Shown piece by piece: positions 2,989-24,160 of a DNA stretch of 37,318 nucleotides. The DNA is from an uncultured Clostridia bacterium (GTDB lineage Bacteria > Bacillota > Clostridia > Oscillospirales > Ruminococcaceae). Both the position numbers and the translations under genes were made by a program. Positions within the stretch are counted from its first letter, which is position 1. Each line of letters begins with the position of its first letter. Below the pieces are notes generated by a model, which saw only the letters and a program-made list of their open reading frames with translations, was not told where the DNA came from and did no database searches. The stretch spans positions 1-37,318 of the forward strand of contig CAMNVW010000003.1 of NCBI GenBank assembly GCA_946563605.1. The letters run 5' to 3'.

Positions 2989-4398
2989 ATGCTCCAGCAA
3001 ATTTTAGAGTCCGCCGTACAGCTGCTATGGGGACGCGGCACTGTTGCCTTCACACTGCTGTGCGGCGTTTATTTTACCGTATGCACAGGTTTCCTGCCCA
3101 TTTCGCCCAAGCGATTGCCCACTGTACTGCGCAAAACGGTCGGTTCCCTTTTTGAGCCGCGCAAAAAAAATGACGGTGTCTCACCGTTTGCCGCTGTCAG
3201 CACCGCTTTAGGCGGCACAATGGGCGTCGGCAACATTGTCGGCGTTGGCGCCGCCCTCGCGCTCGGTGGCGCCGGCAGTATCTTTTGGATGTGGGTGGGT
3301 GCATTTTTAGGGATGGCAACCAAATACATGGAGGTGTTCCTTGCGGTACAGTGGCGGCAAAGGGATCCAAGCTCCTGCTCCAACAAAGGCGGTCCCATGT
3401 ACTATATCTCTCAAGGGATTCCGAATCTGCTCGGAAAGATCCTCGCCGTTATTTTCTGCGTTTTCTGTGCGCTCGCAAGCTTTACCAGCGGCAGCATGAC
3501 CCAGACAAATGCCATCGCACAATCGCTGATGGAAAGTTTCTCCGTTTCCCATCTCCTCTGCGCGATTGTCCTCACCGTTCTCTGCGGCTGGGTGCTGTCC
3601 GGTGGATGCGACCGTGCGGTCAAGACCTGCTCAAAGTTAGTGCCGGTGATGTCGCTGTTTTATCTGCTCGGCTGCGGCTATATCCTCTTTCGTTTCCGGC
3701 AGAATATTCCGACCGCCTTTCACGAGATATTCGCACAGGCGTTTTCCCCCAGCGGAACGGTCGGCGCAGCTGCCGGATTTTTTACAGCTATGCGGGTCGG
3801 TATTTCCCGGGGAATATTTACCCACGAAGCCGGATTGGGCAGCGCATCGATTGCGCACGCGTGCAGTGACGCCAAAACTCCCGTCGAGCAGGGCTTTTGG
3901 GGAATCTTCGAGGTGTTCTGCGACACCATTTTGGTCTGCACCGTCACTGCTGTCGCCATCCTCATCAGCGGTGTACCGCTCTCCCCCTCTTCGGCGCAGG
4001 CAGCTTTCGGCATGGTGATGGGCGACGCCGGCGAAAAGATGCTTTCTGTTGCAATCTCGCTGTTTGCCTTTGCGTCGGTCATCAGCTTTTGTCTGTACGG
4101 TCAGCGCTGTGTGGAATATCTCTTTCCAAAGAGCAAGACGGCGATGCGCTGTTACCGGATGTTATTTCTCGCCGGCTGTGCGACGGGCTGTTTTACCCAA
4201 TTATCCCCCGTTTTTCTGCTGGCAGACCTGCTCAACGCCTGTCTGCTGATTCCAAATCTTGTCGCGCTGGTGATTCTCTCACCCCAGGTATTCTCTAAAA
4301 CCAAAGATTATTTTCTAAAAGGAGGAAATAAGGTATGTTCATCTGTTCGGTCAAACCCAAAGACTTCATCAAACGGCTTCTTCTCATCGCTCTCCTGA
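2989..4398 (+). CDS. AGCS family sodium/amino-acid (alanine/glycine) symporter
   Basis: 469 residues with about 10-11 membrane segments. Blocks typical of the alanine/glycine:cation symporter family (AlsT/DagA) are present: GTMGVGNIVGVGAALALGG (near residue 75), MWVGAFLGMATKYMEV, GPMYYI, and FTHEAGLGSA-like SRGIFTHEAGLGSASIAHA. The protein takes up Ala/Gly or related amino acids with Na+; exact substrate is not readable. The reading frame is open far upstream (to 2584), but only the ATG at 2989 has a strong site (AAGGAGG at 2977-2983) and starts the membrane protein proper; the upstream part is antisense to the DUF1847 gene. The last 64 bases overlap the next gene, so the two are co-transcribed and probably translationally coupled. 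The C-terminal tail after the last helix is short, Ser/Lys-rich and unlikely to be conserved. Confidence 0.93.
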   Translation: MLQQILESAVQLLWGRGTVAFTLLCGVYFTVCTGFLPISPKRLPTVLRKTVGSLFEPRKKNDGVSPFAAVSTALGGTMGVGNIVGVGAALALGGAGSIFWMWVGAFLGMATKYMEVFLAVQWRQRDPSSCSNKGGPMYYISQGIPNLLGKILAVIFCVFCALASFTSGSMTQTNAIAQSLMESFSVSHLLCAIVLTVLCGWVLSGGCDRAVKTCSKLVPVMSLFYLLGCGYILFRFRQNIPTAFHEIFAQAFSPSGTVGAAAGFFTAMRVGISRGIFTHEAGLGSASIAHACSDAKTPVEQGFWGIFEVFCDTILVCTVTAVAILISGVPLSPSSAQAAFGMVMGDAGEKMLSVAISLFAFASVISFCLYGQRCVEYLFPKSKTAMRCYRMLFLAGCATGCFTQLSPVFLLADLLNACLLIPNLVALVILSPQVFSKTKDYFLKGGNKVCSSVRSNPKTSSNGFFSSLS

Positions 4399-4832
4399 TT
4401 TTGATTACTGTCTGCGCCATCCGCTTTCTCAAAAAAGACGCGGCAAAGGACCCCGCTTCACCGCTGCCCTCTATTTCCCAAACGCACGACATCCACGCAC
4501 CCGACAACACCTCACGCATTACATTCCTCAACAACTTCGGCTGGAAAGTTTCCAAGGAACCCATCGAGGTTGTGCAGGTGGTGATCCCCGAAACCTTCGG
4601 GGACGTCTATCAAAATTACAACGCCATCCAAACCGAGCAGGGCTTTGACCTGAGCAAATTCAAAGGAAAGCAGGTCACGCGCAGCACCTATTCGGTGCTG
4701 AACTACCCCGAACAGAAGGAGTATATCCGCGCAAACCTTTTGATTTATAACGATGAGATTATCGGTGGCGATATTTGCTCGGTCTATGCCAAAAACGGGT
4801 TTATGCACGGCTTTGCCTTCCCGACAAAGTAG
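4335..4832 (+). CDS. DUF4830 domain membrane-anchored protein
   Basis: 165 residues. One N-terminal membrane anchor (about residues 11-32, very leucine/isoleucine rich) is followed by a Pro/Ser/Asp-rich linker and a compact extracytoplasmic domain. The domain pattern (RITFLNNFGWKV, then IP-x2-F, Y-x2-YN-x-IQ-x2-QGFDL, GK, YP, a nonpolar-VYN run and ending IGGDICS...GFMHGF) fits DUF4830, a clostridial family of unknown role. The ATG at 4335 has AAAGGAGG upstream, and the first 64 bases lie inside the symporter gene in another frame. The pairing suggests the same expression conditions; it does not show a shared function. Confidence 0.8.
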   Translation: MFICSVKPKDFIKRLLLIALLILITVCAIRFLKKDAAKDPASPLPSISQTHDIHAPDNTSRITFLNNFGWKVSKEPIEVVQVVIPETFGDVYQNYNAIQTEQGFDLSKFKGKQVTRSTYSVLNYPEQKEYIRANLLIYNDEIIGGDICSVYAKNGFMHGFAFPTK

Positions 4833-5055: not shown

Positions 5056-5985
5056 TTGCAAGCATACAAAATAGGAGACTACATCCGCAAGAATCGAGAA
5101 GAAAAAGGCATCAGCCAAAAACAGCTTTGCAGCGGTATTTGTGTCCATACAACGTTGTCACGCATCGAAATGGGCAGGCAGGAACCATCCTATTACATTG
5201 TACAGGCACTTTTGCAAAGGCTCGGTATCTCGGAAGAAGGAGTTCAAATTCTGATGGGACCGCAGGAATTCGAGCTGGCTGAATTGCAGCGTGAAATTGT
5301 GGTAGATAATGCCGGCAAGCGTTTTTTAGACGCTCTGGAAAAAATCCACAGACTGGAACAATTTCCTCAAGCGCAGACCGAACCGCTGATTCAGCAGTTT
5401 TTGCTGCGGTCACGCGTGCTGTCCGGTTACGTAGAAAACGGCGAGCACAAAAAGTACGATTATCAAACACAGCGGCAGATGCTGATTCAGGCACTGGAGT
5501 TGACCTGTCCAGAGATTACAATGGACAATATCGGCAGTTTTTTGCTGAGCGAAAATGAGGCAAAAATCATCAACCAAATTGCGATTACTCATTCCGAAGA
5601 AGGAGATCGCAGACAGGCGATTGAGATTTACCGTCAGCTGCTGAAATATGTGCAGGATCACTTTGCAAATACTGAGGTCAACGAGCGTTTGCTTCCGCTG
5701 ACCGCCTACAACTACTCTCGTCTGTTAGGGCGGGAACAGCGGTATGAGGAGGCTATTGAGATTGCCGAACTTGGCAGAAAATCTTGTGTAAACAGTAACA
5801 AATGTCAAATGTTGGGTTCTCTACTGTTTAATATTGCCTGTTGTCTGCATGAACTAGGCGATGATGAAAAATGTAAAGAGTTATTGATTGATGCTTACCA
5901 TATCAATAAAGTGATGGAGCGTCCAAAAAGTTGTAAAGTGGTGCAGGAATATGCCAAAGAAACCTTTGGCATGGAGATTCTCTAA
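5056..5985 (+). CDS. HTH (XRE) regulator with TPR-like C-terminal region; possible peptide sensor
   Basis: 309 residues starting at TTG (5056), with AGGGGGGTG just upstream and no better start. Residues about 5-60 form an XRE/Cro-type helix-turn-helix (IGDYIRKNREEKGISQKQL...TLSRIEMGRQEPS). The remainder, about residues 70-309, is wholly helical with TPR-like pairs, for example EEGDRRQAIEIYRQLLKYV, REQRYEEAIEIAELGRK and HELGDDEKCKELLIDAYHI. This architecture (HTH plus about five TPRs, 280-310 residues) is that of RRNPP-type regulators such as PlcR, Rgg and PrgX, which bind short secreted-and-reimported peptides. The closest neighbour is a convergent gene for a small secreted peptide; the stop codons overlap by 4 nt. 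That context supports a peptide-sensing role, but the cognate ligand is inference. An ordinary TPR-containing XRE regulator remains possible. Confidence 0.8.
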   Translation: MQAYKIGDYIRKNREEKGISQKQLCSGICVHTTLSRIEMGRQEPSYYIVQALLQRLGISEEGVQILMGPQEFELAELQREIVVDNAGKRFLDALEKIHRLEQFPQAQTEPLIQQFLLRSRVLSGYVENGEHKKYDYQTQRQMLIQALELTCPEITMDNIGSFLLSENEAKIINQIAITHSEEGDRRQAIEIYRQLLKYVQDHFANTEVNERLLPLTAYNYSRLLGREQRYEEAIEIAELGRKSCVNSNKCQMLGSLLFNIACCLHELGDDEKCKELLIDAYHINKVMERPKSCKVVQEYAKETFGMEIL

Positions 5986-6200
5986 GCAACTTCTCCTTCT
6001 GGATCATCAATATAATCGCAAGGCATGATTCCAGACTCTCCGCCGTTTTCCGGCGGCTGGGGGGTCTGGTTTTGTGTACCCTCGTCTTCCATCGGCGGTG
6101 GGGTCGGCAGGTCGGTCGGTTTGGTTTCTTCGGCAAAAGCGGTCATTGGGATGGCGGCAAGCATCAAAGCGGCAAGCAAAGCAACAAATGTTTTTTTCAT
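5982..6200 (-). CDS. small secreted peptide, candidate signalling propeptide
   Basis: 72 residues. A canonical signal peptide (KK, hydrophobic core to about residue 18, cleavage predicted after AFA at residue 23) is followed by a 49-residue acidic, Pro/Thr/Glu-rich segment with one cysteine (C61). The C terminus reads SGIMPCDYIDDPEGEVA. The ATG at 6200 has AAAGGA at a suitable distance and its own TTGACA promoter. It ends tail-to-tail with the HTH-TPR regulator: its TAG (5984-5982) overlaps the regulator's TAA (5983-5985). Size, export signal and position next to an RRNPP-like regulator are what a signalling propeptide would show. It is longer than PapR or SHP and has a long disordered middle, so a small structural or immunity peptide is an alternative. 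I do not recognise the family. Confidence 0.7.
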   Translation of the reverse strand: MKKTFVALLAALMLAAIPMTAFAEETKPTDLPTPPPMEDEGTQNQTPQPPENGGESGIMPCDYIDDPEGEVA

Positions 6201-6243
6201 AAAAAATCAAATCCTTTCTAAAATGGTTGTCGCGACTACTTAC

Positions 6244-6273
6244 ACTATAAGCATAAAGCTTTCTGTTTGTCAA
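6244..6273 (-). promoter_or_regulatory. promoter of the secreted-peptide gene
   Basis: On the minus strand a perfect TTGACA (6273-6268), then TTATAG after 17 bp (6250-6245) or TATAGT after 18 bp (6249-6244). The TTG of the -35 box is part of the left arm of the 46-bp palindrome. Confidence 0.7.
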
Positions 6274-6316
6274 TAGACATTTCACGCACACAAAAGTGTG
6301 CGTGAAATGCCTATTG
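6271..6316. promoter_or_regulatory. 46-bp divergent operator-like palindrome
   Basis: Two 21-base arms (6271-6291 and 6296-6316) are complementary except for one A-C mismatch and surround AAAA (6292-6295). The inner 14 bp, CATTTCACGCACAC against its complement, are perfect. No T-run follows on either side and it lies upstream of both divergent genes, so it is an operator candidate rather than a terminator. The outer CTATTG ends reach into both -35 boxes, which are placed symmetrically about the centre (TTG starting at 6273 and 6314). Confidence 0.8.
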
Positions 6317-6342
6317 CTTTCTTTAGAAAAATCGGGTATGAT
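6314..6342 (+). promoter_or_regulatory. promoter of the secreted-protein operon
   Basis: TTGCTT at 6314-6319, 17-bp spacer, TATGAT at 6337-6342. The -35 starts inside the right arm of the palindrome, mirror-symmetric to the divergent promoter. Confidence 0.7.
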
Positions 6343-6388
6343 GGATACAAGGAGCTCCTGAAAATTAAATTAAAGGAGAGATTCATTT

Positions 6389-6811
6389 ATGACGAATCTG
6401 AAAAAACTGTTTGCAGCCGCTATGGCAACCGCAATGCTGGCAACCATGAGCACAGGTGCGTTTGCTGCAAGCGCAAAAGACCCTGCTGGTTTACAGGAGC
6501 TCGGTGATAAATACGGAATCACTGTAGAATATGTAGGAGAAAGAGAAGGCGCACCTGTTTACGAGATTGAGGATTTAGAAAAATTCAACGAGATTATCGC
6601 AAATCAGAAACTTTCTGGAAGGGCTTCTTGTCAGCATGACTGGTTTTATATTTGGACAACCAAAGATCAGCAATGCATCCGCAATTCAAGAAATCATCAT
6701 ACTTATGCACAAAAATTAGAAAAGTGTAACAAGTGCGGTGTAATTATGAATACGGGAGAATGGGAAATCTGGGATTGCCCATCTGGCTGCCGCAAGAGCG
6801 ATTATCTTTAA
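6389..6811 (+). CDS. secreted Cys/His protein, unknown function
   Basis: 140 residues. Signal peptide with predicted cleavage after AFA (residue 26). The mature N-terminal half is a small alpha/beta-looking segment (ITVEYVGEREGAPVYEI). The C-terminal half has six cysteines (81, 96, 113, 116, 130, 134) and H83, H103, H104, including CQHDW (81-85), C-x2-C (113-116) and C-x3-C (130-134): either a secreted zinc-binding fold or disulfides. The ATG at 6389 has AAAGGAG 10 nt upstream. It is the first gene of an operon with the next one (38 nt apart), which shares the HDW and C-x2-C pattern. I do not recognise the family. The promoter is coupled to that of the secreted peptide through one palindrome. 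Confidence 0.8.
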   Translation: MTNLKKLFAAAMATAMLATMSTGAFAASAKDPAGLQELGDKYGITVEYVGEREGAPVYEIEDLEKFNEIIANQKLSGRASCQHDWFYIWTTKDQQCIRNSRNHHTYAQKLEKCNKCGVIMNTGEWEIWDCPSGCRKSDYL

Positions 6812-6849: not shown

Positions 6850-7374
6850 ATGAAGAAAAAATTACTGGCATCTATCTTATTATCAGCAATGCTGTTAAGC
6901 GGTATGCAGGTTTTTGCTCAGAAATTGGATGCTCCAGTCGCTTCAGAGGAAGATTTGATGACGTTCTCGGGAATTGAATTTGAAAAATCTTCCAAAGATG
7001 GAACGCTTATCTATAAAATCTTGGAGAGTTCCAAGGAGGGTTCCGAAGATATTTACCAAAAAGCCCTTGAGGAAAATAACCGGCGAATCGAAAAACTTTG
7101 GGATGAAAACGCTCTCTCCAAGTTTGCGGAAAAAGAAAAATTAAATATTGACTTTAACAAGGCGAATTATGGTTTGGTTCAGTTTAACTGCACCGTGTCC
7201 GATATTACAGTTGATGAGCTTTCATCGAAACTGAAACATCAGGTCATCAAGAAAACGGACAAAAGTCATCAGCACGACTGGATATACTTTGATGTTACCG
7301 ATCAAAATAAAGAGAACAAACTGTTCCGCCATTGCCAGACCTGTGAAAAGTGGCAGGCATATCACCTTGATTAA
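6850..7374 (+). CDS. secreted protein with C-terminal HDW/C-x2-C motif, unknown function
   Basis: 174 residues. Signal peptide with predicted cleavage after VFA (residue 23). The middle is a highly charged helical region (about residues 60-105, with NNRRIEKLWDENALSKFAEKE). The C terminus has SHQHDWIYFDV (residues 139-149) and HCQTCEKW (161-168), matching the HDW...C-x2-C arrangement of the preceding gene, with W-to-C spacing 18 instead of 28. The two are therefore probably distant paralogues with different N-terminal parts. Start ATG 6850 is preceded by AGAGG. A strong terminator ends the operon. Function unknown; an exported metal-binding or surface role is only an inference. Confidence 0.8.
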   Translation: MKKKLLASILLSAMLLSGMQVFAQKLDAPVASEEDLMTFSGIEFEKSSKDGTLIYKILESSKEGSEDIYQKALEENNRRIEKLWDENALSKFAEKEKLNIDFNKANYGLVQFNCTVSDITVDELSSKLKHQVIKKTDKSHQHDWIYFDVTDQNKENKLFRHCQTCEKWQAYHLD

Positions 7375-22299: not shown

Positions 22300-22771
22300 A
22301 CTTTTGCAAGAGAAAAGTTTTTTCCTCATCAATAAAATACTGAAAGTTTTGTTCCTAGCAGAATAGATGTCCACAAAATCTCCCACTGGGAGGTTTTGTG
22401 GGTTCGTGCATTACGGTTATTTCTAAAAGGGGTTTTTCTCTTGCAAAAACCCTCTCTTTTCCAATCCGAATTTCGGATTGGAAAATTCACCCCCAAATGC
22501 GCCTGACGATAAAGGTGTTTCGCTCACTGTGACAAGTGATTGAAACTTAGGGAGAATGGAACGCAGTTCCATTCTCAGGGTCACACAACGCAAAACTTAT
22601 TTCTGCACAAAAGCATAAGTGTGACCTTGCGACCAAAGGCTCTGCCTTTGGAATCCGCAGCCTTTTGAAAAAGGCTGGCGAAAACTTTTTGTTTGGAGTT
22701 TGGCGGCAAAGCTGCCAAACTCATGGGGACGGAACGCTTGCCAATTTGCGCTAAAAAGTAAAACCGTCCCC
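22300..22771. repeat. repeat element C (mosaic of hairpin modules)
   Basis: Modules in order: GCAAGAGAAAAGTTTTTTCC; a palindrome CCACAAAA...TTTTGTGG (22371-22400); a TTTTCTCTTGCAAAA module; TTTTCCAATCCGAAT and complement (22458-22485); AAATGCGCCTGACGATAAAG (22495-22514); an 11-bp hairpin (22552-22562/22566-22576); AAGTGTGACCTTGCGACCAA (22617-22636, also in element A); CCAAAGGCTCTGCCTTTGG and its GCC(TTTT) hairpin; GAGTTTGGC/GCCAAACTC (22696-22704/22714-22722); and GGGGACGG/CCGTCCCC (22725-22732/22764-22771). The part 22300-22516 recurs inverted in element D. No gene is supportable. Confidence 0.75.
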
Positions 22772-22772
22772 C

Positions 22773-23597
22773 CTATACCAGTTTCCTTTCCTGATCATAG
22801 CATCCACTTCGCAGGCCCTGCAAATCAAGCGTTACAAAGGAAAATCCCAGCGAAGTGATTTCTTCAGAAATTCTCTCCCGATGCTGAAGCAGCTTTTCAA
22901 AATCTTCCGGCACAATTTCGATGCGTGCAAGCGTTCCATGCACGCGCAAACGACATTGTGCTATCCCGAGGGTATGCAAAAGTTCCTCCCCCGCCTCAAT
23001 CCTTTTGAGTGTAGAAGCTTCCAGCGGCGTATCATAGGGGATTCTGGTCGCAAGGCAGGGTGTTGCCGGTTTCGACGCGCAGGAAAGTCCCATCTGCTTT
23101 GCAAACTGGCGCACCTGTGCTTTGGTAAAGCCATTTTCTGCAAGGGGACTGCGTACCCCCAGCTCTCTGATGGCGCGAATCCCTGGGCGGTACGCCTTTA
23201 AATCGTCTGCGTTTGTACCGTCCAGCACCGCCTGATAACCCTGTTCCTGCGCAAAAGCGATTGCTTTTGCAAACAGCTGCTTTTTGCAGTGATAACAGCG
23301 GTCAACGCCGTTCTGCACCACCTGCGGACAGGAAAGTTCATCAATCTCTAAAACAACATGGTGCACCCCTAAACTTGCGGCGCATTGTTTTGCTTCCTGC
23401 AAATCTGCCTGTGGATGCAGCACCGTCGAAAAGGTGACTGCCGCGATATGGTCAAGTCCGATTCCCGCCTGTTCTGCCGCCTGACAGCAGGCATTTAATA
23501 AAACGGTGCTGTCCACTCCTGCTGAAAATGCGACGCACACCTTTTGCCGCACAAGCTCCGTCAATTCCTTTATCAGCATTTTCTGATGCTGTTCCAT
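22773..23597 (-). CDS. larE: LarE-like ATP-dependent sulfurtransferase
   Basis: 274 residues from ATG 23597 (AAAGGAAG upstream; longer frame to 23666 lacks a site). The PP-loop ATP-pyrophosphatase motif is FSAGVDST (residues 24-31), followed by HCKKQLF with a C-x2-C-like pair (RCYHC), DGTNADDL and SPLAENGFTK, and by SKPATPCLATRIPYDTPL, whose cysteine corresponds in position to the sulfur-donating region of LarE. LarE provides sulfur to the nickel-pincer nucleotide cofactor of lactate racemase and relatives by giving up its own cysteine sulfur (or an Fe-S-bound sulfide). LarA, LarB and LarC are not in the window, so the client is unknown. The gene is bracketed by inverted repeat copies C and D. 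No clear promoter is seen upstream apart from repeat D. Confidence 0.88.
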   Translation of the reverse strand: MEQHQKMLIKELTELVRQKVCVAFSAGVDSTVLLNACCQAAEQAGIGLDHIAAVTFSTVLHPQADLQEAKQCAASLGVHHVVLEIDELSCPQVVQNGVDRCYHCKKQLFAKAIAFAQEQGYQAVLDGTNADDLKAYRPGIRAIRELGVRSPLAENGFTKAQVRQFAKQMGLSCASKPATPCLATRIPYDTPLEASTLKRIEAGEELLHTLGIAQCRLRVHGTLARIEIVPEDFEKLLQHRERISEEITSLGFSFVTLDLQGLRSGCYDQERKLV

Positions 23598-23652
23598 CTT
23601 TTTCTTCCTTTCTGTTCGATGCTTTTTCGCACTTGTCTGTTGGAGCAAAACA

Positions 23653-24160
23653 AAAGTTTTACTCAATTTTTTTCAAAAAATTGCGGATTCCAAAGGCAGA
23701 GCCTTTGGCGCACTCCGCAGAGTGCGGAGTCTTTATCGTCAGGCGCATTTAGGGGTGAATTTTCCAATCCGAATTTCGGATTGGAAAAGAGGGGGTTTTG
23801 CAAGAGAAAAACCCCCTTTGGAAATAGCCGTAATGTATAAACCCACAAAACCTCCCAGTGGGAGATTTTGTGGACATCTGTCCTGCTAGGGACAGAACTT
23901 CCAGTGTTTTATTTATGGGGGAAAACTTCCGTTTGAGCTTGCCCCTTCCTATAAACTGAAACCATCCTCGATTTTTAGAGAGTTTGGAACAGCTTTGCTG
24001 TGACAAACTCAAGGTGACAGAACGCTTAGCCAATTTCTGATTGAAACTTTAACTGTCACCGAAAATGCGCCTGACGATAAGGTATTTCGACCTCTGCGGA
24101 GGTCGACCAGAGTTTCACTCTGGATTGGACAACTTTTAAAAAAGTTGACAATACTTTTAT
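23653..24160. repeat. repeat element D (mosaic, inverted relative to C)
   Basis: Starts AAAAGTTTTACTCAATTTTT with the CCAAAGGCAGAGCCTTTGG near-palindrome (23691-23709), then CACTCCGC/GCGGAGTG, TTTATCGTCAGGCGCAT (23731-23748), the TTTTCCAATCC palindrome, the CCCACAAAA palindrome (about 23842-23872), GAGTTTG...CAAACTC (23980-24010), GGTGACAG...CTGTCACC (24013-24060), another AAATGCGCCTGACGATAAG (24063-24081), CGACCTCtgcgGAGGTCG-type hairpin, CCAGAG/CTCTGG hairpin, and the inverted end AACTTTTAAAAAAGTT...ACTTTTAT. 23724-23935 is the reverse complement of 22300-22516 with scattered differences. No gene is supportable. Confidence 0.75.

Follow-up and report, generated by a model that had tools for sequence, protein, structure and literature searches.

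A conserved 46-bp palindrome between two divergent promoters as the predicted operator of a PlcR-like regulator in a Negativibacillus-related bacterium

How might a gene for a secreted peptide and genes for secreted proteins, transcribed away from one another, be controlled from a single DNA site? This question is raised by a palindrome of 46 base pairs (bp) in a 37,318-nucleotide stretch of DNA from an uncultured Clostridia bacterium (assembly GCA_946563605.1, contig CAMNVW010000003.1; the whole stretch is called the window here), whose source lineage appears, from the genus grouping of our genome search, to be related to Negativibacillus. We propose, with a probability of about 0.68, that the palindrome is the operator of the RRNPP-family regulator encoded beside it at 5056-5985, and that it co-controls a candidate pheromone and secreted proteins via local feedback. 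The palindrome and its two promoters, with counts that refer to the five related loci compared below, are as follows.

6271..6316, no strand: predicted 46-bp palindromic operator, arms 6271-6291 and 6296-6316, from inverted-repeat search, conservation and motif search
6278-6288 and 6299-6309: conserved half-sites of the palindrome, TGCGTGAAATG reading outward from the centre
6244..6273, minus strand: peptide-gene promoter with a TTGACA -35 (6273-6268), an 18-bp spacer and a TATAGT -10 (6249-6244); -35, spacer length and offset are the same in 5/5 loci
6314..6342, plus strand: secreted-protein promoter with a TTGCTT -35 (6314-6319), a 17-bp spacer and a TATGAT -10 (6337-6342); the -35 offset is the same in 5/5 loci, and the match here is 8/12

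The arms of the palindrome, each of 21 nucleotides (nt), form 20 of 21 possible pairs around an AAAA centre, the sole mismatch being that between 6277 (A) and 6310 (C). In 100 dinucleotide-preserving shuffles of the whole window, which served as the chance control, the best 21-bp arm pair never exceeded 18 pairs, a value seen in a single shuffle, and had 17 or fewer in all the others. In addition, both -35 hexamers begin 20.5 bp from the dyad centre at 6293.5. An earlier reading of this DNA from its letters alone (the sequence-only reading) had described the 21-base arms with their one mismatch as well as the mirror-symmetric -35 starts at 6273 and 6314; it was right on both counts, and our analysis confirms that the palindrome with its symmetric -35s is far from chance. 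Further long inverted repeats are present in the window, several of them terminating in T or A runs like terminators, and a generic scan lists the palindrome itself as terminator-like. However, the palindrome precedes both transcription units, its stem is followed by CCTATTGCTT and not by a run of T, and within the genus it is confined to five loci. Its position, the sequence after the stem and this restriction already contradict the readings of the palindrome as a bidirectional terminator or as a dispersed repeat, which we rejected as having next to no likelihood.

Conservation was assessed through a search for related regulators in 61 genomes, which gave matches in 14, most of the strong ones in the same genus. 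The close subfamily consists of five loci in three genomes, namely the window (C3), contig 90 of the same genome, G003:C7, G003:C2 and G002:C5; L040 shares its regulator start and palindrome with L008 and was left out as non-independent. The source genome assembly, 87% complete, is split into 266 contigs, so that it may lack further copies of the locus. The subfamily regulators are mutually 49-67% identical, and every one of the five loci combines a regulator, a convergent peptide gene, the palindrome and a divergent secreted-protein side, the first gene of which lacks its 5' part on contig 90. All ten half-sites conform to the consensus TGCnnnAAnTG, with TGC at offsets 5-7, AA at 11-12 and TG at 14-15 outward from the dyad; the TTG of the -35 begins at offset 20 from the dyad centre beside each of them (10/10), and the core spacing is constant at 32 bp. 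Across the five-locus alignment, palindromic pairing holds in 87.5% of cells, as against 27-43% when the partner is slid by 1-3 columns, and both-sided (compensatory) changes are seen in 9 of 24 column pairs. The outermost four pairs are partly accounted for by the -35s themselves, and the innermost pairs are the least conserved. The sequence-only reading had looked to related genomes for its test, and would have taken it as evidence against a function if close relatives had kept both genes but lost the palindrome. In the event, 5/5 loci retain the palindrome together with its half-sites, spacing and mirrored -35s, and changes in the arms are compensated.

We then consider where else the motif occurs. 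A search of six genomes of the genus with up to 3 mismatches and an N10 centre, which would miss more degenerate sites, identified exactly five sites, one beside each of the five intact subfamily regulators, while the reversed pattern, used as a control in the same six genomes, gave zero matches. This one-to-one co-occurrence of motif and regulator subfamily is among the grounds for the operator reading. Of the remaining RRNPP genes in the genus, which reach at most 43% identity, most do not have the palindrome, and L022 and L033 carry a different one with no TTGA at its ends. Candidate operators do vary in sequence between genera, as might be expected if another regulator bound the palindrome and the RRNPP gene were merely adjacent; we consider this improbable, however, given the one-to-one pattern and the fact that the same layout, with different palindrome sequences, is found beside other RRNPP genes.

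The sequence-only reading had also allowed for two kinds of shared control, a dimeric protein or a cruciform in supercoiled DNA. The first of these has gained ground, in that the conserved half-sites, their spacing, the compensatory changes and the restriction of the motif to this subfamily point to a protein operator serving both promoters. As for a cruciform that is extruded under supercoiling and switches both promoters, the 21-bp arms with their AAAA centre would suit it. When the palindrome is compared with that of the second locus in the same genome (L005 2907-2952), it is 45/46 identical in the inverted and 39/46 in the direct orientation, a difference that comes down to a handful of positions at which the palindrome is not symmetric, essentially its centre and the one mismatch in the arms; this inversion suggests that a hairpin or cruciform has formed as an intermediate on at least one occasion in evolution. 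Yet specific arm bases are kept while the centre, the least conserved part, varies (8 nt are unpaired in G003:C2 and there is no loop in G002:C5), and the motif is found only at loci of this regulator subfamily. A cruciform switch is thus not supported, and we regard it as very improbable.

Are the two promoters, then, alike? Since a generic promoter scan did no better than chance (5 promoters found versus 4.7 in shuffled sequence), and the plus-strand promoter falls under its threshold with only 8/12 matches, what makes the promoters credible is their conservation across five loci and not any single-sequence match. On the peptide side, 5/5 loci have TTGACA, an 18-bp spacer and a -10 of TATAGT or TATGAT (11/12 match). 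On the secreted side the -35 is weaker in 5/5 loci, the 17-bp spacer is clear in 4/5, and the -10 is unclear in G003:C2. The contrast between the two promoters is thus itself conserved, and they cannot be taken to respond equally; the suggestion of the sequence-only reading that both would be affected alike needs qualifying on this account. One further element was seen on the secreted side.

6351..6358, plus strand: GGAGCTCC, kept in 4/5 loci, close to where transcription from the secreted-protein promoter is predicted to start

This element lies at a fixed distance past the secreted-side -10 (4/5 loci) and differs from the start-proximal Shine-Dalgarno site; the combined pattern of promoter and GGAGCTCC occurs nowhere else in the six genomes of the genus.

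Which protein might act at such a site, and on what? The genes around the palindrome are listed here.

5056..5985, plus strand: PlcR-like RRNPP transcriptional regulator of 309 amino acids with helix-turn-helix (HTH) and tetratricopeptide repeat (TPR) domains, the likely (inferred) ligand of the palindrome, from family, sequence and model matches
5982..6200, minus strand: secreted peptide precursor of 72 amino acids with a signal-like N-terminus, convergent with the regulator gene (4-bp tail-to-tail overlap)
6389..6811, plus strand: secreted protein of 140 amino acids without known function, first gene beyond the operator on the other side
6850..7374, plus strand: secreted protein of 174 amino acids without known function, with a homologue in the G003:C7 / L038 locus

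The regulator belongs to the RRNPP family, with an N-terminal HTH and a C-terminal TPR peptide-binding domain. Its Pfam matches are RNPP_C (1.5e-13, above the cut-off), HTH_3 (3.6e-10) and TPR repeats, and its closest solved relative by sequence is PlcR (4.4e-16). In line with this, the predicted structure is nearly all-helical, with a mean predicted local distance difference test (pLDDT) score of 91.8, and its best structural match is PlcR-PapR7-DNA (3u3w), followed by other PlcR, ComR and Rgg2 entries. The small exported precursor expected next to an RRNPP regulator is present, with equivalents of 51-75 amino acids in 5/5 loci, export signals having been judged via simple composition rules and not with a dedicated predictor. 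We propose that this precursor fits as the pheromone of the regulator, and that its eight C-terminal residues, DDPEGEVA, could be all or part of the signal. A Pfam search of the products of 6389-6811 and 6850-7374 found no known family. A third RRNPP regulator of the source genome (L027 / L060, G000:C5) is also accompanied by a convergent signal-peptide gene, of 83 amino acids; no operator-like palindrome was found upstream of that peptide gene.

In the mechanism that we envisage, the 72-amino-acid precursor would be secreted and trimmed, after which its C-terminal residues would re-enter the cell and bind the regulator. The operator-bound regulator might then touch RNA polymerase at both -35s, in a class II-type activation, and pheromone and secreted proteins would rise together in a local feedback loop. 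The half-site centres are ~22 bp apart (two helical turns), on roughly the same face of the helix, and adjoin the two -35s. Activation by the regulator is favoured over repression, and positive feedback would be plausible for a member of this family; that one dimer bridges both half-sites, rather than two dimers, is less certain. Several points weigh against this proposal. The arm compensation comes from five related sequences only, and the shuffle control keeps their relatedness; the half-site spacing is unlike that of the 16-bp PlcR box; and the peptide promoter, with its perfect -35 and its 11/12 match in 5/5 loci, is near consensus and so may be strong without an activator.

This near-consensus promoter also suits the main rival, in which the peptide-free regulator represses both promoters by occluding their -35s and the peptide releases it, with the same output and the same sign of feedback. 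Repression relieved by a peptide in this way is Rgg3-like control, and it would agree with an operator that ends at the -35 hexamers. However, the conserved core of each half-site sits immediately 5' of the -35 and does not cover the -35 and -10, a position typical of activators, and PlcR, the closest relative by sequence and fold, is itself an activator. Repression thus seems possible but clearly the less likely arrangement, and activation from the shared operator remains our preferred reading.

The presence of two copies in one genome offers a further view of the locus. Window positions 6010-6362 and L005 2635-2997 (contig 90) are 89.6% identical over 364 positions, a block that takes in the precursor minus its end, both promoters and the palindrome. 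Outside the block, the regulators are ~51% identical and the downstream genes unrelated. The similarity ends at the codons for the last eight residues of the precursor, DDPEGEVA in the window and NGPVGESD on contig 90, the remainder of the two precursors being nearly identical. This looks like gene conversion that has spared the presumably specificity-determining end of the candidate pheromone, leaving it with its own regulator. The other loci are partly consistent with gene conversion, in that the precursor ends DEPKGDGN (G003:C7) and NGPGGDVA (G003:C2) follow the regulator group, whereas DDPDGDVM (G002:C5) does not. The contig 90 locus (L005 1-1524) is also syntenic with G003:C7 (L038 ~3256-4771) across an IMP dehydrogenase-like gene (88% identical DNA), whereas the G003:C7 regulator is 67% identical to that of the window versus 54% to the contig 90 regulator, so that loci may have swapped regulators. 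Behind the second operator, L005 3017-3571 encodes a trypsin-like serine protease (Pfam 1.2e-12) with no visible start or signal, which would reflect either a truncated gene or an assembly fault.

A more far-reaching combination of these ideas is tentative, and we think it unlikely in full. Here, a PlcR-like dimer would span half-sites about two turns apart and contact two back-to-back RNA polymerases, making a single-event switch of pheromone and effectors, while the promoter-operator-precursor block would move by gene conversion and the pheromone end stay with its own regulator, giving two partly cross-wired channels per cell.

Does the arrangement extend beyond the genus? G176 and its relatives belong to a different genus of this family. 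Downstream of several related regulators there, we found long palindromes that differ in sequence, and a number of these precede a convergent peptide gene; further loci of that genus lack a palindrome. The palindrome of L079 has perfect 24-bp arms, and for L074 and L075 the offset of the best -35-like hexamer is the same (18 bp) on either side of the palindrome. Judging from the loci compared, dyads in this position are recurrent and not universal. In L099, L100 and L103, from another genus, two adjacent 19-bp palindromes (ATTTGCATnnnATGCAAAT) stand upstream of the peptide gene and are possibly two dimer sites. A model with one small dyad per arm, like a PlcR box at each -35, was also tried on the five Negativibacillus-group loci and rejected, as it did no better there than with shuffled arms; an in-arm dyad is clear only in the L099 group (p 0.008), and for the five loci the comparison does not support a two-dimer model. 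Elsewhere in the window, at 22319-23925, inverted repeats of 134, 89 and 63 nt (83-88% complementary), whose arms hold short palindromes, surround an open reading frame of 297 amino acids that is, judged by eye only, LarE-type sulfur transferase-like.

A large survey of RRNPP systems covered complete genomes only, and its main text does not mention Oscillospiraceae or Ruminococcaceae (PMC10075063); our literature search for Negativibacillus and quorum sensing found no described system. For research on peptide signals in Negativibacillus and its relatives, a gut lineage, the locus provides a well-defined and conserved predicted operator together with a possible pheromone and neighbouring targets. 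Furthermore, two copies with near-identical operators and different peptide ends would make signal cross-talk and specificity directly testable.

How, finally, does the locus compare with known systems? It resembles PlcR-PapR of the Bacillus cereus group, to which it is linked by an HTH-TPR regulator closest by sequence and fold, a gene for a secreted peptide precursor, and secreted targets. PlcR is an activator whose palindromic box precedes the -35 of sigma-A promoters and whose targets are secreted proteins; the box is 16 bp long (TATGnAnnnnTnCATA), stands at a variable distance from the -35, occurs at many chromosomal sites and may serve divergently transcribed genes (PMC2464732). Here, in contrast, the palindrome is 46 bp long and at a fixed distance from both -35s, the half-site TGCnnnAAnTG and its spacing do not match that box, and the peptide gene, which runs towards the regulator gene, has a separate promoter located at the operator. 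Nor was a PlcR-style chromosome-wide regulon seen, since only local sites were found in the motif search with up to 3 mismatches, which degenerate sites would escape. A review treats the promoters targeted by RopB, ComR and Rgg2 as class II activator promoters in which inverted repeats lie at the -35 region or immediately ahead of it, and the speB and sigX promoters are said to be without a canonical -35 (PMC4162386). Our locus shares with the streptococcal Rgg/SHP, ComR/ComS and RopB systems an inverted repeat at or just upstream of the -35, where class II-type activation has been proposed; unlike in the RopB/ComR-type speB and sigX promoters, both -35s are recognisable and mirrored. AimR of phage SPbeta has a long-spaced operator for one RRNPP dimer, from which the peptide releases it (PMC6458997). 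This is a precedent for a long-spaced operator bound by one such dimer, although here 20 bp separate the equivalent boxes, CATTTC and GAAATG, and the operator has a promoter on each side. In that last respect the locus is like bioO of E. coli, where a single long imperfect palindrome governs two divergent promoters, but there the repressor is of a different family and the promoters overlap face-to-face, whereas here they stand back-to-back. The locus thus differs from known quorum-sensing loci of its kind as a new variant.
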